Below, in pieces: positions 4,212-13,722 of a DNA stretch of 64,000 bases. Source of the stretch: Halopseudomonas litoralis (GTDB lineage Bacteria > Pseudomonadota > Gammaproteobacteria > Pseudomonadales > Pseudomonadaceae). The translations under genes and the position numbers were made by a program. Where the stretch lies: NCBI RefSeq assembly GCF_900105005.1, contig NZ_LT629748.1:1798001-1862000 (forward strand), written 5' to 3'. The notes under the pieces were generated by a model, which was given only the letters and a program-made list of their open reading frames with translations, ran no database searches and was not told the DNA's origin. Position 1 is the first letter of the stretch; the number at the start of each line of letters is the position of its first letter.

Positions 4212-5537
4212 ATGCTGGACGTGGCCACTGCTTCACACCGCCGGTTATTGCTGGTGGACCCCTGCAGCGCCTGCCTGGAGTTGCAGACACGCCTGAGTAA
4301 TGCCGGATGGGAAGTCATCACGGCGACGCTGGACCATATGGGGCAATCCCCATGCGACCTGGGCATGCTCAGGCTGCAGCCGGCGCATGTTGCCGATCTT
4401 GACCGGCTGAAGAGAACGCTCAATCAGACCGGGATTCAGTGGGTAGTGGCCGTGCCTCGCGAACTGCTCGAGCACCCTGGCGTGGCACAGTTCATTGCCG
4501 AATGGTTCCTCGACTATCACACCCTGCCCTTCGATGATTCTCGCATTCATATCGCCCTGGGCCGCGCCTGCGGCATGGCCCGCCTGCGCCGCCGCTATCA
4601 GCAGCAGGCCTGGCCGAGCGAGGAACTCTTTCTCGGCAACAGTGACGAAGCCCTCGCCCTGCGCAATCTGGTAACTCGCGTGGCGCCGACCGACTCGCCA
4701 GTGATGATCCGCGGCGAAAGCGGCTCGGGTAAAGAGTTGGTTGCCCACGGTCTGCATGCCGGCTCCCGGCGCAAGAATGCAGTCTTTGTCGCGGTAAATT
4801 GCGGCGCCATCCCGGAACATCTGATCCAGTCGGAATTGTTCGGCCATGAAAAAGGTGCCTTCACCGGCGCCCATCAACGCAAGATCGGCCGTATTGAATC
4901 GGCCAATGGCGGCACGCTGTTCCTCGACGAAATCGGCGATCTGCCGCTGGAAATGCAGGCCAATCTGCTGCGCTTTCTGCAGGAGATGCAAATCGAGCGC
5001 GTCGGCGGTACCCAGTCCATCAGTGTCGATGTGCGGGTGCTGGCGGCAACGCATGTGGATCTGGAGAAGGCGGTCAGTGAAGGGCGTTTTCGCGAAGATC
5101 TGTATTACCGCCTGAATGTGCTGGAAGTGCGCACTGCGCCGCTACGCGAACGCCAGGCTGACATCGTGCCCATGGCCACTCACTTCGCTCAGCTGTATAC
5201 CGCGGAAACCGGCTACCGGCCGCGCAACTTCAGCAGCGAGGCGATCAGCGCCATGCTGCACCACAACTGGCCGGGCAATGCCCGCGAGCTGGCCAACCGG
5301 GTACGTCGGGGCATGGTGCTGGCCGAGGGGCGGGAAATCGAGGCGGTGGATCTGGGACTGGCCAGCGCCGCAGAGCCAGAGGTCGAGAGCTTGCAGACCT
5401 GGGTGCTGCGCGCTGAGCGCCAGGCGCTGCATGCTGCTATCAATCACTTTCCCAACAATATGATGCAGGTTGCCCGGCAGCTGGAAATCTCCCGACCAAC
5501 ATTGTATCGGCTGTTGCACAAGCATCATATCCGTTGA
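4212..5537 (+). CDS. VpsR-like sigma-54-dependent transcriptional activator
   Basis: 441 residues from the ATG at 4212 (AGGA 5 nt upstream; an upstream in-frame ATG at 4134 has no site). Residues 9-125 are a receiver-like domain resembling the VpsR/FleQ type and without an obvious phospho-acceptor Asp motif. An AAA+ domain follows with Walker A GESGSGKE (168-175), the sigma-54 contact loop GAFTGA (215-220) and Walker B GGTLFLDE (233-240). A Fis-type helix-turn-helix closes the protein ([15 protein letters not shown]). Family members activate sigma-54 promoters, and VpsR and FleQ bind c-di-GMP. The gene ends 24 bp from the end of fapF, converging on the amyloid operon. That operon has a sigma-54 promoter, so this is its likely activator by inference. 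Confidence 0.85.
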
Positions 5538-5561
5538 GCTGGCCGTCTGGGTCCCGGCCCA

Positions 5562-6806
5562 TCAGAAGTAATAGGGAAACTTCAGGCTCAGGCTGAAATC
5601 CGGCGCATCCGGGGTCAGCCCCATGGACAGATTCGGCACCACCGTCAGCCGATCGCTGGCCGCGAGGGTCATGCCAATGTTGAAATAGGCGGCGTTGGCG
5701 TCACTGCCGTCCACTGTTTGCCAATTCCCTCCATCGTACCTGATACGGCTGCTGCGACTGATCAGCTCGGAGAAGGATATTGACAGACTCATTCGCTCAT
5801 TCAAGGCGAAAGCCATACCCAGCCCGAACTGGAAATAATCCCCCAGCTTGACGCTACCGGGAACCTCGATTTCCCGCTGGGCACTGATGTCGCTGAAATC
5901 CTCGGCAAAGTTATGCGTATAGGCGAGATTGCCGAACACTACTGCCGGATCCAGCGTCTTGACCAACGATATGCCCGCCGTGGCTGACCAGGCGCCATTA
6001 CCGGTCGGCAGCGACTCCGGTACTGTCAGGTTGTCGTTGTCAGGAGACTGGTTCAGCTTGATGCCGTAGGGATGATCACCGGTGGGCGCCTTGACACGAA
6101 GGCTGAATACCGCATCCGGCCGCCCCGGACTTTCATCAAGAAATTTGTAGGCAACGCCGAAACTGATATCCCCCAGCTTCGGACCTCCTTCCACGACCTG
6201 CTCACTGAACGTTGTACTGGCGCCGCCCGCGCCTGCTGATCGATAGGTGGTTTCCCGGTAGATGTAGGGAACGTTGACATCGAACTGCCAACGCTGGCGC
6301 CAGTTATAGCGCGCGGTAAGATCAAATGTGAAGGTGTCGGCATTTATCTCGTCCACGCCTATATTGCCCAGGAAGATCGCATCCAGTGCGAGGAAGCCGT
6401 TGAGAAACAACTGGCGTGTATCGTAATGGCTGTAGGTCAGGCCGGGTTCGATACTGAAGCTGCCCCCTCCGAAAAAGCCGCTGGCTTCCTGATAGAGCGC
6501 CTCCACACTGGGCGCCTGCTCGTTATCATCACGCAAGGATTGCCCATATCCCGACGCGGCGTTGCCCGTGCCCTGACTGGCGGATGCCACACGGGGTGAT
6601 GCCGTGCGGGCAGTGGGCGCCGCAGCGCTCGATGCGCCTTCGATCTGGCGCAAGCGCTGTTCGAGAATCATCAAGGCATTCTGTTGCGCTTCATAGCGCT
6701 GGCGCAACAGCTCGATCTCCTGACGCAACGCACTTTCTTCACTGGTCTGAGCCATCAGATTACCGGTAACTGCCAGCAGCAGTACACAACCAGCCGATCT
6801 GCGCAT
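5562..6806 (-). CDS. fapF: FapF, outer-membrane amyloid export pore
   Basis: 414 residues. A signal peptide (about 1-19, ending NLMAQ) is followed by a predicted coiled coil (about 24-57: [19 protein letters not shown]...), a Ser/Ala/Gly-rich linker and a plug-helix region ([16 protein letters not shown], about 99-114). The rest is a beta-barrel with alternating aromatic strands, ending in FPYYF, a typical outer-membrane C-terminus. In Pseudomonas FapF forms a trimeric barrel whose coiled coil and plug gate secretion of Fap subunits. The start follows AAGGAAG. It is the last gene of the operon; 40 bp separate it from fapE. Confidence 0.93.
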
Positions 6807-6846
6807 GATGTTCTTCCTTGTATGGATTATCTTGTTCAGTTCTTAT

Positions 6847-7593
6847 TCAATACCCACCGGGGCGCAAGGCGCGCAGCTGCTCCAGCGTACAATTGGCCAT
6901 ATCCTGCCCCAACGGCAGATCGCGCAGCGCCACGCTCAATGTCGCCAGATTGCGCACTGTGTTCAGATCGCCACTGAAATTCGCCTGCTGGGTGATGTTG
7001 CCGCCGCCAATCTGCTGCAAGGCGTTGCCCTGACTACCAGCATCCAGGTGGATCTGCAGGCCACCATTGCGAGCGCTGACCAGGACGTTGCCGGCGGCGT
7101 TGGTAAAGCCGCTCGCCCCATCCCAAGGCGTCGCAGCCGCATCGGGCTCCGCCGCTCCTGCCGCCCCTCGGGTGATGACGATGTCGAGATTGTTCAGACC
7201 ATCATTGAAGTCACCCGCGCTGCGCACACTCTGGGAAATACCCTGAACGCCGGTCAGCCCCCCGCCACCCACGATCTGACCGGAGCCGGGCGGCACCGCT
7301 GCACCTTGCCCCTGGCCCTCCGTGTTCGGCATAAGCTCGGTAACGGAAATATGGGGTTGCGCCTGGCCGTCAAGCTGAAAGGTCACTCCAGCACCAATAG
7401 TCTGGCCGGCGCTGTTTTCCCAGGTGCTGCTCATGGTCACGCCAAAATTAATGATGCGCCCCGGTAGCACATAGCGTCCGCGCAGCTGGGCCAACTCGTC
7501 ATCATTCAGCTCCACAGCACGGAAAGGATTGTCGGCACTCGCCGGCAGACTGCAAGCCAGCAGGTATACCGTCAGCCACATACATCGTCTCAT
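6847..7593 (-). CDS. fapE: FapE, exported minor component/chaperone of Fap fibrils
   Basis: 248 residues with a signal peptide ending near SLPASA (about residue 20). The mature protein is Gly/Asn/Gln-rich, with amyloid-like segments (GNALQQIGGGNITQQANFSGDLNTVRN) and a C-terminal stretch with a single Cys (MANCTLEQLRALRPGGY). FapE is reported as a low-abundance secreted fibril component and chaperone. AAGGGAG is 7 nt before the ATG. The assignment rests mainly on position between fapD and fapF and on general composition, because FapE sequences are poorly conserved. Confidence 0.85.
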   Translation of the reverse strand: MRRCMWLTVYLLACSLPASADNPFRAVELNDDELAQLRGRYVLPGRIINFGVTMSSTWENSAGQTIGAGVTFQLDGQAQPHISVTELMPNTEGQGQGAAVPPGSGQIVGGGGLTGVQGISQSVRSAGDFNDGLNNLDIVITRGAAGAAEPDAAATPWDGASGFTNAAGNVLVSARNGGLQIHLDAGSQGNALQQIGGGNITQQANFSGDLNTVRNLATLSVALRDLPLGQDMANCTLEQLRALRPGGY

Positions 7594-7640
7594 GGTCTAC
7601 TCCCTTGTCCGTTGACACCTGCTACCTGTGTGCAGAACAT

Positions 7641-8336
7641 TCAGAAAAAATCACTCTGCAGAAAGCCGAACTCCATCAGTTCGGCATCCTTCACCGGGCT
7701 GAATCGGTCCAGTCGATGACGCGCCGTTAACGGCTCCGGCGGTGTCAGTAGCGCGTTTTCCCGGTCATAGCCGGGCCCAATAAGGGCGAACAGAATGCCG
7801 TTCCAGCCCTGAGCGAATTCGTCGAGCGTCATCTTCTTGTGCCCCAGCACCGGATCGCCGATGTATACCCAACCATCATTGCTGGCTTGCATGACCACGA
7901 AGTGCCGGTAGCCACGGACATCGATCAATACAATGGAGGGTATTTTGACTTCTGACAGTTGAGCTGGCTGCAATCGATACCCGCGAGCTCGCAATCCCAG
8001 AGTCTCCGCATATCGCTTCATATCCAGCATGGAAAACCCCATGCTCTGCACCTGCTGCACATCGGCGCCTGCCAACATGCCCTGAATCACCTTCTCTTCA
8101 CTGAAATCCCGCCCGTAGGCTTCATTCAGTAAGGTCGCCATGGCAGCTGCACCACAACTGAAATCGGTTTGTTGCTGCACCAGATTGGTGAAGCGTCGCT
8201 CACGCATGCTCTCCACTGATTTGAACACCAACCCTCCACCGGGCAAGACCGCAAAGGGCTTCTGCGCGGCCTGCAACGGCATACAACAAAGTGGGATCAG
8301 AAAGCTGCTCAGCAGCAGAATCAATGGGTGCTTCAT
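7641..8336 (-). CDS. fapD: FapD, C39-like cysteine peptidase of the Fap system
   Basis: 231 residues from the ATG at 8336 (AGGTG upstream), with a signal peptide or anchor (about residues 1-25). The C39-type papain-like triad is visible: Cys in QQQTDFSCGAAAMATLL, His in RGYRHFVVMQ, Asp in YIGDPVLG. FapD is needed for Fap assembly and is thought to process or guide subunits in the periplasm. The open frame extends to 8375, but that longer form has no ribosome site and would crowd the fapC 3' hairpin. It lies between fapC and fapE. Confidence 0.92.
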   Translation of the reverse strand: MKHPLILLLSSFLIPLCCMPLQAAQKPFAVLPGGGLVFKSVESMRERRFTNLVQQQTDFSCGAAAMATLLNEAYGRDFSEEKVIQGMLAGADVQQVQSMGFSMLDMKRYAETLGLRARGYRLQPAQLSEVKIPSIVLIDVRGYRHFVVMQASNDGWVYIGDPVLGHKKMTLDEFAQGWNGILFALIGPGYDRENALLTPPEPLTARHRLDRFSPVKDAELMEFGFLQSDFF

Positions 8337-8384
8337 TGTTCGCACCTGTTCATAGTCAGAAAGACCGTGGGCCATAATCAGAAA

Positions 8385-8405
8385 GGACCCGGGAGACCCG
8401 GGTCC
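8385..8405 (-). terminator. Intercistronic stem-loop just after fapC (attenuator or mRNA stabiliser)
   Basis: A perfect 9-bp stem, GGACCCGGG / CCCGGGTCC with a 3-nt loop, starts 8 nt after the fapC stop on the coding strand and is followed by CTTTCTG. Its place between the major subunit gene and fapD suggests partial termination or 3' protection, giving more FapC than FapDEF. The function is inferred. Confidence 0.6.
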
Positions 8406-8413
8406 GGTATCGC

Positions 8414-9238
8414 TTACGGGCAGGCGTAGCAGCCGGCAGCGATGGACAGCGAGTTGCTCTGCTGGTTGGTGCCGCCAGCAGCCACGTTCACACCTACGTT
8501 ACCCGACACGCTGTTGAGCGATCCGAGCAGGTTGGCGTTGTTTTGTACATCCTGGTTGGTGGTGGGTTGCTGGCCAGGGTGACCTCCGCCCCAGTGCCCG
8601 CCATAACCTGAAGCGACCGTACTGAGACTGGAGTCGCCGGCCTCAACTCCGTTGTAGGTGGTGCTGGAAACCGCCAGCTGCATGACTTCGATCGACGCCT
8701 CTGCGTTCTGTGCTTGTTCGGAAGAAGCGATGGTCACATCGTTCTTCTGCTGGTTGAAACCACCAGCAGCCACGTTCAACCCGAGGTTACCCGAGTAGTT
8801 GTTGGCCGTGTTGTTCACTTTCGCATTGTTGGTGACATCCAGGTTCGCCAGCGTGTTACCGGCATTGACCTGACCAACAGCGATAGTGGAGGTGGCGGTA
8901 TTGCCGAAGACAAAATCAGCATCGGCTGTGGAGATCGCAGCGGCGTTGGCCTGCTGGTTGGTATCACCGGCAGCGACGTTGACCCCGGCGTTACCGGAGG
9001 AGTTATGCAGAGCATCCTGCACCAAGGCGTTGTTTTCGGTGCCGTCATTATCCACGCGGTTGCCCAGGCTGACCTGAACATCGAGGATCGATGCCGCGGA
9101 CATGGATGGTTCGCCCTCCGGTTGATTGTTGCCATTGCCAGGCCCGTGATGGTGACCACCACCAGCAGCCATGGCGCCAAATGACAGGGTCGCAGCGACG
9201 GCGAACGCGAGAGGTGCAAGCTTGCTTGTTGTTTTCAT
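8414..9238 (-). CDS. fapC: FapC, major functional-amyloid subunit
   Basis: 274 residues. A signal peptide ends near GAMAA (25), followed by a Gly/His-rich segment. Three imperfect amyloid repeats sit at about 68-104, 137-172 and 232-268, each carrying the core GN.G.NVAAG..NQQ.N...IA, separated by linkers of about 32 and 60 residues. The protein ends GCYACP, with the CxxC (270-273) characteristic of FapC. AAGGAATAG lies just before the ATG. FapC makes up the bulk of Fap fibrils, which stiffen biofilm and cell surface. CxxC and repeat quality distinguish it from FapB upstream. Confidence 0.95.
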   Translation of the reverse strand: MKTTSKLAPLAFAVAATLSFGAMAAGGGHHHGPGNGNNQPEGEPSMSAASILDVQVSLGNRVDNDGTENNALVQDALHNSSGNAGVNVAAGDTNQQANAAAISTADADFVFGNTATSTIAVGQVNAGNTLANLDVTNNAKVNNTANNYSGNLGLNVAAGGFNQQKNDVTIASSEQAQNAEASIEVMQLAVSSTTYNGVEAGDSSLSTVASGYGGHWGGGHPGQQPTTNQDVQNNANLLGSLNSVSGNVGVNVAAGGTNQQSNSLSIAAGCYACP

Positions 9239-9292
9239 GATCTATTCCTTGTGTGGCTATCAATTCAGTATCAGTAGGAACTGCGTATACAA

Positions 9293-9862
9293 CTACTCCA
9301 CCATCCGGATGCTGAGGTTGTTGACCATTCGGTTGCCAACCCCCGCACCCTGATTCAGCTGAACCACACCGCGGCTTTCGGAGAATGCCTGGTCATCTAT
9401 CTCGACCAGACGCTCCCCTGCCCCGTGTAGCTCCGCAGCTGAATTGAACGACGACCCCGCAGCGCTTTGCGCCAGCACACTGTCGTCGAGGCTTTCGGGC
9501 CGCGCACCTGCGCCGAGCCGAAAACCATTGATCTGCTGATTACCTGCGCCAGCGCCCTGATTGATCCCCAGAACGCCGTTGCCATCGCTGAATGATGCGC
9601 CATGGATATGCGCGCGCAGATCAGCTCCTGCGTCGATCGCAAACTCACCCTCGCGATGCTGCCCCACGCTTACCGCAGGCATGGCACCCGCTGAGATGGC
9701 CCGGGCATTGACCTGCTGTTGCAGCTCGCCGCTCGCCTGATTGATCATCAGGTTGCCTTGATAATGTGCCGCACTGCTGTCAATACTGACCTCGGTTCCC
9801 GCTGCCTGTGCTCCCACTGTCAACAGCAAGCCAAGACCCGTCACCGATAATCGAATGCTCAT
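9293..9862 (-). CDS. fapB: FapB, minor/nucleating amyloid subunit
   Basis: 189 residues from the ATG at 9862 (GGAG 8 nt upstream, inside the end of fapA). The open frame runs up to 9955, but that part overlaps fapA and does not look like a signal sequence. A signal peptide ends about residue 21 (GAQAA). Three short repeats lie at about 35-58, 94-117 and 163-186 (core G...INQ..G..NQQ.N). They are more divergent than those of FapC, and there is no CxxC. FapB is thought to nucleate FapC polymerisation. One base separates its ATG from the fapA stop, so translation is probably coupled. Confidence 0.88.
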   Translation of the reverse strand: MSIRLSVTGLGLLLTVGAQAAGTEVSIDSSAAHYQGNLMINQASGELQQQVNARAISAGAMPAVSVGQHREGEFAIDAGADLRAHIHGASFSDGNGVLGINQGAGAGNQQINGFRLGAGARPESLDDSVLAQSAAGSSFNSAAELHGAGERLVEIDDQAFSESRGVVQLNQGAGVGNRMVNNLSIRMVE

Positions 9863-9863
9863 C

Positions 9864-10331
9864 TCAGCGGCTCCGCAATATCTGCAGCGGCCGCAGACCC
9901 TGCTGGACGCTACGGCCGACCTGGCCCCCGGCGCGCCCCGCAGCACCACCGCCATGCCCGGCTGAATTAAAGCCCTTGGCGCCTGCTGCGCTGGGGGCCG
10001 GGTTCATCGCCCCACCGGCAGGCAGCACGCTGAACACCTCAGTGAAGCGGCTCCCACTATTGATGCCGGCAAAATCAGTATCGGAGAGTTCCATCGGAGC
10101 CAGGCCGGAGGTCAGCGCCTTGTTGAGCAACACATCCCGTCTGGGATTGGCTACCTGGGGACGCGGGTCCGGCTTCAGCTCCTGGCGCACCGCAGCACGG
10201 GGCTGCACCTGTCTGGAGATGATAATGTCACCATCTGCGCCATACGCCGGCAGATGACTCACCACACAGATCAGCATCCCCATCAGGCAAACCAGCATCT
10301 GGATCTTCAGTGAGGACAAGTACGTTCTCAT
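9864..10331 (-). CDS. fapA: FapA, first protein of the Fap operon (subunit chaperone/regulator)
   Basis: 155 residues starting MRTYLSSLKIQMLVCLMG, a signal sequence ending near PAYGA. The mature protein is low-complexity and Gly/Ala-rich at the C-terminus (GAKGFNSAGHGGGAAGRAGGQ). FapA is periplasmic; its deletion changes the FapB/FapC composition of fibrils in Pseudomonas. An ATG at 10376 is in frame, but it would lie 2 nt from the predicted sigma-54 transcription start and has no ribosome site, so the ATG at 10331 is preferred although its own site is weak (GGAC). Confidence 0.85.
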   Translation of the reverse strand: MRTYLSSLKIQMLVCLMGMLICVVSHLPAYGADGDIIISRQVQPRAAVRQELKPDPRPQVANPRRDVLLNKALTSGLAPMELSDTDFAGINSGSRFTEVFSVLPAGGAMNPAPSAAGAKGFNSAGHGGGAAGRAGGQVGRSVQQGLRPLQILRSR

Positions 10332-10388
10332 GACATGGCGTCCGAATTGGCTGTTGTTGTAAGTGATACCCTTCATGACTTGGATAGG

Positions 10389-10404
10389 AGCAATGTCCGT
10401 GCCG
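10389..10404 (-). promoter_or_regulatory. Sigma-54 (-24/-12) promoter of fapA
   Basis: On the minus strand CGGCACG-GACA-TTGCT matches the consensus TGGCACG-N4-TTGCW at all but the first base, with the exact GG-to-GC spacing. The predicted start is near 10378, giving a leader of about 47 nt to fapA. Confidence 0.88.
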
Positions 10405-10423
10405 GAAATAGAATACTATTTAA

Positions 10424-10436
10424 TTTCAAGCACTTA
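10424..10436. promoter_or_regulatory. Candidate IHF site upstream of fapA promoter
   Basis: TTTCAAGCACTTA matches WATCAA-N4-TTR with one mismatch, in AT-rich DNA at about -52 from the predicted start, where IHF bends many sigma-54 promoters. Confidence 0.45.
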
Positions 10437-10467
10437 TAATAACCACAGACGCTCCGAGCGAGGCGAG

Positions 10468-10485
10468 TGTTTCACTCTTGAAACA
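10468..10485. promoter_or_regulatory. Palindromic candidate activator site (UAS) for the fap operon
   Basis: TGTTTCA-CTCT-TGAAACA is a perfect 7+7 bp palindrome centred about 100 bp upstream of the predicted start, a usual distance for enhancer-binding proteins. A further single TGTTTCA lies at 10619-10625. The 10405-10686 stretch holds no believable gene. Confidence 0.5.
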
Positions 10486-10686
10486 GCCAGCGACAGGAAG
10501 CTACACAGAATCCGCCTGTAAGCCGCAGAACACCGAGTAGATCCCGGATTCCGGGTAGTCTCGAAATTGATACAGTTGGCTGGCGACAGCGGCTTTGCTG
10601 ACTTGCAGCGGGAAAAGGTGTTTCAGATATGAGTAAGGCGGGGAAAACAGCGGTCAGCGGGTAGAAAATCATGCACGAAAGAGACA

Positions 10687-10725: not shown

Positions 10726-11421
10726 TCAACCGCACTTGCTGTCACCGCAAGCCAGACAGGTCAGACAACCGTCCATCTGTACTGCCGCCTTGGTGTGGCA
10801 CTTGCCGCACATCTGCGCACCGGCGGGATAGGCTTCGGCACTGTCATCGCAATCGGCTGCGGCCTGCGCCGGTGCGCTGGCACTGAGGAACTCGGCGCGC
10901 TTCTGTTCCAGATAGGCGCGCTGGTGCTCGTCCATCTCGTCTTCAAGCATGCCGATGCGCTTGAGGTGCTGCTCCAGCACATCGCCGATTTCTGCCACCA
11001 GCGAGGGCATCCAGCGGCCTCCGCGCTTCATGTAGCCGCCTTTGGGGTCGAATACGCTGTTCAGCTCCTCGACCAGGAAGGTGCAGTCACCGCCCTTGCG
11101 GAACACCGCAGAGATGATCAGCGTCAGCGCCGAAATCCACTGGTAATGCTCCATGTTCTTCGAATTGATGAAGATCTCGAAGGGGCGGCGGGTCTCGTGG
11201 TCGCTGCCGGGGTTGAGCACCACGTCATTGATGGTGACGTAGATGGCATGCTCGGAGGTCGGGGTCTTGATCTTGTAGGTCGAGCCTTCGAGGAACTCGG
11301 GGCGCTTGAGTTTCTCATGCATCTCGACGTAAGTCGGCGCAGCCGGTTCGGGCGCCTTGGCCGGCTCGTCCGGCTTGACCACTGCGTAGTCGACAATCTT
11401 GCTGGTTATCTTGAGTGCCAT
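10726..11421 (-). CDS. nrdJb: NrdJb, small polypeptide of split class II ribonucleotide reductase
   Basis: 231 residues, the separate C-terminal part of the B12-dependent reductase. It includes PFEIFINSKNMEHYQWISALTLIISAVFRKGGDC, and its tail carries paired cysteines (MCGKCHTKAAVQMDGCLTCLACGDSKCG), as in the Zn-ribbon and redox tail of class II enzymes. In Pseudomonas the enzyme is encoded as NrdJa and NrdJb and works without oxygen dependence. The start at 11421 (AGGA 8 nt upstream) is better spaced than the ATG at 11427. It is 76 bp downstream of nrdJa, same operon. Confidence 0.93.
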   Translation of the reverse strand: MALKITSKIVDYAVVKPDEPAKAPEPAAPTYVEMHEKLKRPEFLEGSTYKIKTPTSEHAIYVTINDVVLNPGSDHETRRPFEIFINSKNMEHYQWISALTLIISAVFRKGGDCTFLVEELNSVFDPKGGYMKRGGRWMPSLVAEIGDVLEQHLKRIGMLEDEMDEHQRAYLEQKRAEFLSASAPAQAAADCDDSAEAYPAGAQMCGKCHTKAAVQMDGCLTCLACGDSKCG

Positions 11422-11497
11422 GTCCATCTTCCTTGCCCTGCAATACGGCAGGGCTGTATTTGTATTGTTACCAGGTCGTCAATTGGGCGCCAGCGGC

Positions 11498-13651
11498 TCA
11501 GAACTTGCCGTAATAGCCTTCCTTGAGCGCATCATACAGGTTGGCTGCCGAGTGCATCTCGCCGTCGTATTCGATCTCTTCTCCACCCTTGGCCTCGATG
11601 ATGCTGCCGTCTTCCAGTTTGAAGCGATAGGTGGTGTTGGCCAGATCCTGCTCCTTCACCAGTACGCCCTGGAAGGCTTCCGGGTTGAAACGGAAGGTCG
11701 TGCAGCCTTTCAGCCCCTTGTGGTAAGCGTACAGGTAGATGTCCTTGAAATCCTCGTAGGGATAATCCGTCGGCACGTTGGCAGTCTTGGAGATCGACGA
11801 GTCAATCCACTTCTGCGCCGCCGCCTGCACGTCCACGTGCTCGGTGGGCTTCACGTCATCGGCGGCGATGAAGTACTCCGGCAGGTTGCGCGAGGCGGCT
11901 TCCATGTCCGGCAGCGCCTGGGGATCGATGAATTCGCGGTAGGCCAGCAACTCGAAGCTGAACACATCGACCTTTTCCTTGGACTTCTTGCCTGCGCGGA
12001 TCACGTTACGGAAATAGTGATGGGCGAAGCTCGGCTCGATACCATTGGAGGCGTTGTTAGCCAACGACAGGGAAATGGTCCCGGTCGGAGCAATCGAGCT
12101 GTGGTGAGTGAAGCGCGAGCCGTGCTCGGTCAGTGCCTCGACCAGTGCCGCGTCCTCACCCGCGACCTGCTGCATGTAACGGCTGTATTTGGCCCACAGC
12201 ACCTTGCCCTTGACCTTCTGGCCGATCTTGAAACCGTCCGTCTTCATTTCCGGACGCTTAGCCAGCATGGCCCCGGTCACGGTGAACTCTTCTTCCATGA
12301 TCGGCGCCGGGCCTTTCTCTTCGCTCAGTTTCAGGCCGGTGCGCCAGCCCTGCAGGGCCATTTCCTTCGACACCTGTTCGGTGAATTCCAGCGATGCGGC
12401 ATCGCCATAGCGCATGCGCAGCATGGTCATGGTCGAACCCAGGCCAAGGAAGCCCATGCCGTGACGGCGTTTGCGGAAGATCTCGTTGCGCTGCTCTTCC
12501 AGTGGCAGGCCGTTGATCTCGACCACGTTGTCCAGCATGCGGGTGAAGATGTCGACTACCTTGCGATACTCGTCCCAGTCGAACCGCGCCTTTTCAGTGA
12601 AGGGATCGCGCACAAACAGGGTCAGGTTGATCGAGCCCAGCAGGCAGGCGCCATAGGGCGGCAGCGGCTGCTCACCACAGGGGTTCGTGGCGCGGATCTC
12701 TTCGCAGAACCAGTTGTTGTTCATCTGGTTGACCCGGTCTATCAAGATGAAGCCCGGCTCGGCGAAGTCGTAGGTGGAGGTCATGATCATGTCCCAGATG
12801 CGCCGCGCCTTCATGGTGCGGAACACCCGGCAGGCGATCAGGCCATCTTCGCGGGTGACGTAACGCTCGTTGCTGGGCCATTCGCGCCAGATCACCTGCT
12901 TGGGATCATTGATGTCCACGCCATCAGCTTCGGCCTCCCCTTCGCTCAGCGGGAAGGCCAGCTTCCACTCGCTGTCGGCCTCCACCGCCTGCATGAACTC
13001 CTCGGTGATCAGCAGCGACAGGTTGAACTGGCGCAGGCGACCGCCCTCACGCTTGGCGCGGATGAAGTCCGCCACATCCGGATGACCGACATCGAAAGTC
13101 GCCATCTGCGCGCCACGACGGCCGCCAGCCGACGATACGGTGAAGCACATCTTGTCGTAGATATCCATGAACGACAGCGGGCCGGAAGTATAGGCGCCAG
13201 CGCCGGATACATAAGCACCGCGGGGCCGCAGAGTGGAGAATTCATAGCCGATGCCGCAGCCGGCCTTCAGCGTCAGACCGGCCTCATGCAACTTGGACAG
13301 GATGTCGTCCATGGAGTCGCCGATGGTCGCCGACACGGTGCAGTTGATGGTCGAGGTGGCGGGCTTGTGCGCCAGCGCGCCGGCATTGGAAGTGATTCGG
13401 CCAGCGGGGATCGCACCGTGGCGCAGCGCCCAGAGAAACTTGTCGTGCCACTCTTCGCGCAGCTTCGGAAGCTCGACCTCGGCCAAGGCGCGGGCGACCC
13501 GCTGATAGGTCTCATCGACAGTCTGGTCGATGGCGACACCTTCCTTGGTCTTGAGCCGATATTTGGTATCCCAGATATCTTCCGAGGCCGGCTGCATGGG
13601 GAGGCTGGTTACGACATTATGCAGACGTTGAACCTTGGCTGTTTGACTCAT
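11498..13651 (-). CDS. nrdJa: NrdJa, adenosylcobalamin-dependent ribonucleoside reductase, catalytic subunit
   Basis: 717 residues making deoxyribonucleotides from ribonucleotides with adenosylcobalamin as radical source. Visible are the N-terminal WDTKYRLKTKEG, the loop ITSNAGALAHKPATSTINC, the catalytic-site segment ATNPCGEQPLPPYGACLLGSIN and the downstream APTGTISLSLANNASNGIEPSF. AGGAG is 6 nt from the second of two tandem ATGs (13651); the first is at 13654. Transcription is probably controlled by NrdR through the boxes just upstream. The continuous antisense frame on the plus strand is a codon-bias shadow. Confidence 0.95.
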   Translation of the reverse strand: MSQTAKVQRLHNVVTSLPMQPASEDIWDTKYRLKTKEGVAIDQTVDETYQRVARALAEVELPKLREEWHDKFLWALRHGAIPAGRITSNAGALAHKPATSTINCTVSATIGDSMDDILSKLHEAGLTLKAGCGIGYEFSTLRPRGAYVSGAGAYTSGPLSFMDIYDKMCFTVSSAGGRRGAQMATFDVGHPDVADFIRAKREGGRLRQFNLSLLITEEFMQAVEADSEWKLAFPLSEGEAEADGVDINDPKQVIWREWPSNERYVTREDGLIACRVFRTMKARRIWDMIMTSTYDFAEPGFILIDRVNQMNNNWFCEEIRATNPCGEQPLPPYGACLLGSINLTLFVRDPFTEKARFDWDEYRKVVDIFTRMLDNVVEINGLPLEEQRNEIFRKRRHGMGFLGLGSTMTMLRMRYGDAASLEFTEQVSKEMALQGWRTGLKLSEEKGPAPIMEEEFTVTGAMLAKRPEMKTDGFKIGQKVKGKVLWAKYSRYMQQVAGEDAALVEALTEHGSRFTHHSSIAPTGTISLSLANNASNGIEPSFAHHYFRNVIRAGKKSKEKVDVFSFELLAYREFIDPQALPDMEAASRNLPEYFIAADDVKPTEHVDVQAAAQKWIDSSISKTANVPTDYPYEDFKDIYLYAYHKGLKGCTTFRFNPEAFQGVLVKEQDLANTTYRFKLEDGSIIEAKGGEEIEYDGEMHSAANLYDALKEGYYGKF

Positions 13652-13722
13652 CATATTCTCCTGGAATCAGTGTTTTACGGGCTTGACAAACGCGCGCGCC
13701 GCCTCTTCCCTGCGCCCGAAAA

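Follow-up and report, generated by a model that had tools for sequence, protein, structure and literature searches.

The closest described counterpart of the locus studied here is the fap amyloid system of Pseudomonas fluorescens PF07. There, brfA (an ORF of 1,326 bp) lies next to fapA-F on the downstream side and in reverse orientation, the level of fap transcripts falls when either brfA or rpoN is lost, and the -24/-12 promoter of fapA has been placed by 5'-RACE (PMC9207406). A further report describes the PF07 BrfA as a c-di-GMP-sensing sigma-54 activator of fapA (PMC13101488). Our locus comes from another genus and lies in a window of 64,000 nt (the whole stretch of DNA that was analysed) from Halopseudomonas litoralis (GCF_900105005.1, NZ_LT629748.1 positions 1,798,001 to 1,862,000). 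The two loci share six fap genes, a convergent regulator beyond fapF, the same regulator ORF length of 1,326 bp and a -24/-12 promoter of fapA. Since the PF07 arrangement has been published, the brfA-fap pair is already known as a kind.

All six minus-strand ORFs of the operon exceed the equivalog cut-offs of the curated NCBIfam models: fapF, encoding the amyloid secretion channel (5562..6806; NF058560, 735 bits, cut-off 700), fapE (6847..7593; NF058559, 350.3 bits, cut-off 250), fapD, encoding a C39 peptidase (7641..8375; NF058616, 380 bits, cut-off 330; PF03412), fapC, encoding the main fibril subunit (8414..9238; NF058558, 267.9 bits, cut-off 195), fapB, encoding the minor subunit (9293..9862; NF058557, 211.7 bits, cut-off 190), and fapA, encoding the chaperone (9864..10331; NF058617, 128.1 bits, cut-off 110). 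The preliminary description, made from the letters of the window alone, had claimed a complete fap operon, and this is borne out by the curated models; we regard the locus as a fapA-F functional-amyloid operon, of which fibril formation itself is predicted. The real start of fapD may lie further inside the ORF than 8375, and that of fapB was picked at 9862 in an ORF which, as listed, extends to 9955. The ORF of fapA is open as far as 10376; the start at 10331, preferred by eye, is probably the one used, because the ATG at 10376 would leave a leader of only ~2 nt if the transcript starts at 10378. Elsewhere in the window (10726-13654), a vitamin B12-dependent ribonucleotide reductase is encoded in two ORFs, one for the NrdJ_Z part (718 aa) and one for a separate 233-aa C-terminal piece.

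The plus-strand gene at 4212..5537 encodes a BrfA-type activator of 441 aa, with a VpsR-type pseudo-receiver, an AAA+ domain with the GAFTGA motif and a Fis-type HTH. The domain search finds the VpsR domain (PF20161) at 36.1 bits (cut-off 23.7) together with a sigma-54 AAA+ domain and HTH_8; GAFTGA is intact at residues 215-220, and the gene adjoins fapF in convergent orientation (4212-5537 versus 5562-6806). An activator with GAFTGA that converges on fapF, as originally claimed, is thus what the domains, the motif and the gene coordinates reveal. The epithet "VpsR-like" from the same description suits the N-terminal domain but not the mode of action, as VpsR acts free of RpoN, whereas here GAFTGA is combined with a -24/-12 promoter. 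With Arg in the place where the acceptor Asp would be expected, phosphorylation of the receiver-like domain is unlikely. FleQ of Pseudomonas possesses an LFRS motif for c-di-GMP, located before the AAA+ domain. A separate FleQ-like gene (L004, named by eye) is present in the H. litoralis genome, and the alignment with its product reveals that LFRS is not kept in the protein encoded at 4212-5537, so that binding of c-di-GMP is not readable from the BrfA sequence. In total, the genome contains 12 matches to the activator family.

The sigma-54 -24/-12 element (10389..10404, minus strand), identified by a motif scan with one mismatch and anchored in 71 non-redundant fap promoters, predicts a fapA transcript start at ~10378. 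Although it is the sole one-mismatch match in the window, the scan returned 10 matches at <=2 mismatches versus 16.7 in shuffles, i.e. fewer than expected by chance, and therefore the element by itself is weak evidence; what carries the sigma-54 claim is that the element sits in front of fapA and is conserved among fap promoters. An IHF-like site with one mismatch (10424..10436, plus strand, coordinates converted by hand) has its centre at 39 bp, counted from the G in the -12 GC, which places it at ~-52. Further upstream lies the proximal BrfA box, a palindrome (10468..10485) centred 85 bp from the -12 G, and beyond it two boxes with 2/12 mismatches each, at 10557..10574 (174 bp) and 10619..10636 (236 bp). 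The promoter had been drawn with a one-mismatch sigma-54 element at 10389-10404, an IHF-like site at about -52 and a perfect TGTTTCA-N4-TGAAACA palindrome, and all three have withstood the scans, the palindrome with 0 mismatches.

Within the window, the palindrome pattern at <=3 mismatches is not rarer than chance. The pattern TGTnTCAn4TGAnACA, whose two free positions in the arms were picked after the loci had been seen, occurs in the 3.99-Mb genome in one exact copy and at one site with one mismatch, while the backwards-pattern control gives one site at <=1 mismatch. The one-mismatch site, at an ORF that looks transporter-like by eye, was rejected as a second clear target in this genome; the sigma-54-like matches near it are weak (13.0 and 13.5, compared to 15.0 for the window element) and lie 0.4 and 1.2 kb off. 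Across the genus, 7 of 14 fapF genomes have the exact box at their fap promoter, and eight further exact boxes are scattered over 37 genomes, close to the 0.24 per genome expected by chance (hand estimate). Autoregulation of brfA via the box was likewise rejected: just two of the 72 fap-linked loci contain even a 2-mismatch box within the 400 bp before brfA.

For the family-wide comparison a fap stretch was fetched for 75 of the 112 fapF genomes, our own included. All fetched stretches with fapB, including the window, supplied 77 promoters (74 fapF stretches, as well as L053, L095 and L104, which are without fapF), from which six near-copies (L051, L099, L106, L115, L130 and L132) were dropped to leave 71 non-redundant ones; distances are measured between the centre of the box and the G in the -12 GC. 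The box TGTnTCA-n4-TGAnACA, with <=2/12 mismatches, is found at 84-87 bp in 52 of these 71, compared to 0.01 expected on average and a maximum of 1 in 100 first-order resamplings; anywhere in 420 bp it is found in 70 (expected: 0.83 on average, 6 at maximum). At the best offset between 83 and 88 bp, the box has 0, 1, 2, 3 or 4 mismatches in 31, 12, 9, 16 and 3 promoters, respectively; hence it is present in 71/71 at <=4 mismatches, and the 19 with 3-4 mismatches include the genus members L049 and L052. Both arms are kept, with G2 and C17 invariant in all 71, while the middle four bases vary freely. Two or three boxes between 60 and 300 bp are found in 58/71 promoters, and a spacing of 61-63 bp, as between the upper two boxes of the window, is also seen in L040-L044 and L053. 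Between the box and -24, the best match to the IHF motif has <=1 mismatch in 54/71 promoters versus 7% of shuffles; in 52/71 this match sits at 39 bp, always on the same strand. Among three named Pseudomonas with regulators ~60% identical to ours (L202-L204), P. cedrina (L203) resembles our locus in the convergent arrangement of the two genes and in a perfect box at 85 bp, with 60% identity between the regulators.

The distribution of the two genes points to the same partnership. In the genus sample (37 genomes, ortholog threshold E <= 1e-100), a brfA ortholog is present in 14/14 fapF genomes and in 1/23 without fapF (G028), which gives a Fisher value of 2.5e-9, uncorrected for relatedness and with eight distant genomes excluded from the count. 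In the family sample (298 genomes, drawn evenly), we defined strong fapF by >600 bits, which selects 112 genomes, 107 of them above the curated 700, and not the 147 with any match at E <= 0.001. An ortholog of brfA is present in 112/112 of those genomes, 13 have the ortholog only, 173 have neither, and none of the 298 searched has strong fapF without the ortholog. The genes are adjacent and convergent in 65 of the 70 fetched stretches that hold both, with a median gap of 64 bp, and 2.3-2.7 kb separates them in the remaining five. As to the five fetched fapF stretches without brfA, one ends at a contig end (G259), and the other four genomes have brfA elsewhere (G197, G254, G269 and G284), with the box still at the fapA promoter. 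The proposal that the adjacent regulator is a dedicated fap switch is therefore supported by the 112/112 co-occurrence, the kept box and, in PF07, a brfA that activates fap from the same position. Two genomes contain a second cluster (L095 and L104) with matches to fapABCDE, no fapF in the stretch, and a second brfA and box of its own.

Outside the family, a class sample of 369 genomes includes, besides our own, 16 with a fapF relative (E <= 1e-60), none of them above the curated cut-off. The best BrfA match of the genome lies inside the fap stretch in 13 of the 16; in G559 it lies elsewhere and the second best adjoins the second fapF, the only match in G455 is partial and sits at a contig end, and the match in G307 is of generic level. 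Eight of the 17 fap stretches outside the family (L175, L176, L179, L180 and L182-L185) contain a box with <=2 mismatches whose distance to the best sigma-54 element is 83-87 or 156-167 bp; L177, L181 and L189 contain boxes without an anchor chosen in the distance scan, and the box scan found none in L178, L186, L187, L188, L190 and L191 (L187-L191 were judged from the box scan alone). The prediction that the palindrome would be kept where regulator and operon co-occur is thus supported by 52/71 promoters inside the family and 8/17 stretches outside it. In 9/17 of the latter, brfA precedes fap on the same strand, so the neighbourhood was rearranged while the pairing held. The comparison as a whole suggests that the box, its spacing and the brfA-fap partnership are old and widely shared.

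The 13 family genomes with the ortholog but without strong fapF comprise G028, G058, G163, G170, G287 and eight in which BrfA has no GAFTGA; in these orphan genomes, fapF was sought genome-wide and fapA-F in the fetched stretches. In G028 (L053, with L205 seemingly on the same contig), a brfA with an in-frame stop adjoins fapA, fapB and fapC, no fapD-F were found there, and the regulator and operon seem to be decaying together. In G058, G163 and G170 (L118-L120), brfA retains GAFTGA, and a short ORF, the frame of which is broken in one copy, stands behind a sigma-54 promoter that has the upper boxes and lacks the proximal one: no box is found near 85 bp at <=3 mismatches, whereas those at 169-170 bp, with 1 mismatch, and at 146-147 bp, with 2, are retained. 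We rejected this ORF as a new BrfA target; it looks like a fapA-fapC relic left by an internal loss, because it resembles the latter portion of FapC (for L119 versus the L072 FapC, E 4e-23 and 34% over 221 columns) and, weakly, the start of FapA. G287 keeps GAFTGA and has no box of <=1 mismatch in the fetched stretch. Exact boxes elsewhere in the orphan genomes were left out of the evidence; those common to two genomes lie inside stretches 84-95% identical, and one in G287 precedes, by eye, an ammonium-transporter-like ORF.

GAFTGA has been lost, by substitution or by loss of the loop, in ten fetched brfA genes that have no fap nearby (L055-L059, L121-L123, L127 and L128), i.e. those of the eight family orphans and of the more distant G133 and G145, as opposed to 0/72 fap-linked ones (70 GAFTGA, 2 GSFTGA). 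The GAFTGA-less relatives retain the HTH, and none of their ten fetched stretches contains a box of <=1 mismatch. In the BrfA tree, from which the broken L053 was excluded, the loss label changes at least three times; three changes could, according to the tool, equal one gain and two losses, and the placement of L055 is unsure. Separate losses appear the simplest explanation, because GAFTGA-bearing fap-linked rows stand between. Substitution ratios of 0.02-0.10 in the GAFTGA-less groups (12 pairs, nine genes, three groups, the largest of which is close to saturation at synonymous sites) are to be compared with 0.03-0.11 for fap-linked brfA (nine pairs). This purifying selection, in a comparison that covered L056-L059, L121-L123, L127 and L128, indicates that these nine of the ten genes probably retain a function, perhaps one independent of sigma-54. 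Genomes of the same family also contain a distant BrfA-like group (L124-L126 and L129), in which the motif reads GSFTGA and the HTH end differs. It is tempting, albeit somewhat against the odds, to consider the switch (BrfA, the ~85 bp box, IHF and the sigma-54 element) as an old inherited cassette of Gammaproteobacteria, whose BrfA, after fap loss, repeatedly became VpsR-like and sigma-54-free through loss of GAFTGA, while the HTH was kept and selection on the gene remained purifying. If this is true, repeated loss of GAFTGA represents a natural route to VpsR-type proteins. The GAFTGA-less genes under selection offer a testable case of activators changing their mode of action.

For the window itself, we propose with high confidence a fapA-F amyloid operon with a dedicated BrfA-type enhancer-binding protein acting through the box, IHF and the sigma-54 element. 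Weighing against it are the 19/71 promoters with 3-4 mismatches in the proximal box, the imperfect upper copies in the window, the stretches of other families without a box at the expected distances, the LFRS motif missing from BrfA, the low number of sigma-54-like matches in the window and the 13 family genomes with the ortholog but without strong fapF. The protein encoded at 4212-5537 would bind the TGTnTCA-n4-TGAnACA box at 10468-10485, as judged from conservation of the site, and probably, more weakly, those at 10557-10574 and 10619-10636; c-di-GMP would render it active, by extension from the PF07 report; IHF would bend the DNA at 10424-10436; the GAFTGA loop would contact the sigma-54 RNA polymerase at 10389-10404, and ATP hydrolysis by the activator would lead to a transcript starting near 10378.

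With 12 activator-family matches in the genome, the box could belong to another factor, e.g. a different enhancer-binding protein, with the neighbour acting elsewhere or only indirectly on fap; the three fap-less genomes that keep brfA and a boxed promoter indicate that the neighbour may have further targets. We consider this improbable, given the ortholog in 112/112 fapF genomes, the specificity of the box to fap promoters, the missing <=1-mismatch boxes in the fetched stretches of the 10/10 GAFTGA-less orphans and the abolition of fap expression upon loss of brfA in PF07 (PMC9207406). Somewhat less improbable, but still unlikely, is that the pair is correct and either responds here to a signal other than c-di-GMP or acts like VpsR via sigma-70: the FleQ LFRS motif is missing from BrfA and VpsR works free of RpoN (PMC5552954), but GAFTGA is kept in 72/72 fap-linked rows (two as GSFTGA), the -24/-12 element stands at a fixed distance from the box, and the PF07 BrfA is reported to be a c-di-GMP sensor (PMC13101488). 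Finally, all the promoters are related and the resampling made no correction for descent, so one may ask if the box and its spacing reflect only common descent of the promoter rather than binding. We find this highly improbable, because the four central bases of the box are free to vary whereas both arms are kept, the promoter set was cleared of near-copies, and other families show the same distances although there brfA stands upstream of fap in 9/17 stretches.

The preferred reading, of a dedicated BrfA-type activator acting on fapA, replaces a guess drawn from a single sequence by a rule that has been tested, whereby every searched family genome with strong fapF has a BrfA-type activator (112/112), and the box at a fixed distance provides a means to find fap control in other bacteria and to test it by point changes. 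We found no paper describing the box, the distances with the IHF site, the reach beyond the family or the GAFTGA-less orphans; a likely place for the box (Guo 2024, Microbiol Res 287:127864) lay outside the search. What is new here is the test of co-occurrence and box conservation put forward in the preliminary description, with the GAFTGA-less orphans as the more novel side result. Among the known systems, VpsR of Vibrio cholerae acts without RpoN (PMC5552954), whereas the protein encoded at 4212-5537 keeps GAFTGA and, judging by sequence, faces a sigma-54 promoter. BerB of Burkholderia cenocepacia resembles the BrfA type in being an enhancer-binding protein with GAFTGA and a c-di-GMP effector that works with RpoN on a biofilm gene, but differs in its target, berA rather than an amyloid operon, and in being described as without an N-terminal input domain (PMC5552954). 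As for the DNA site, the one reported for SypG of Vibrio fischeri, TTCTCANNNTGMDWN (PMC10162802), has the TCA-gap-TGA core in common with the box, but a three-base gap, other flanks and other target genes.
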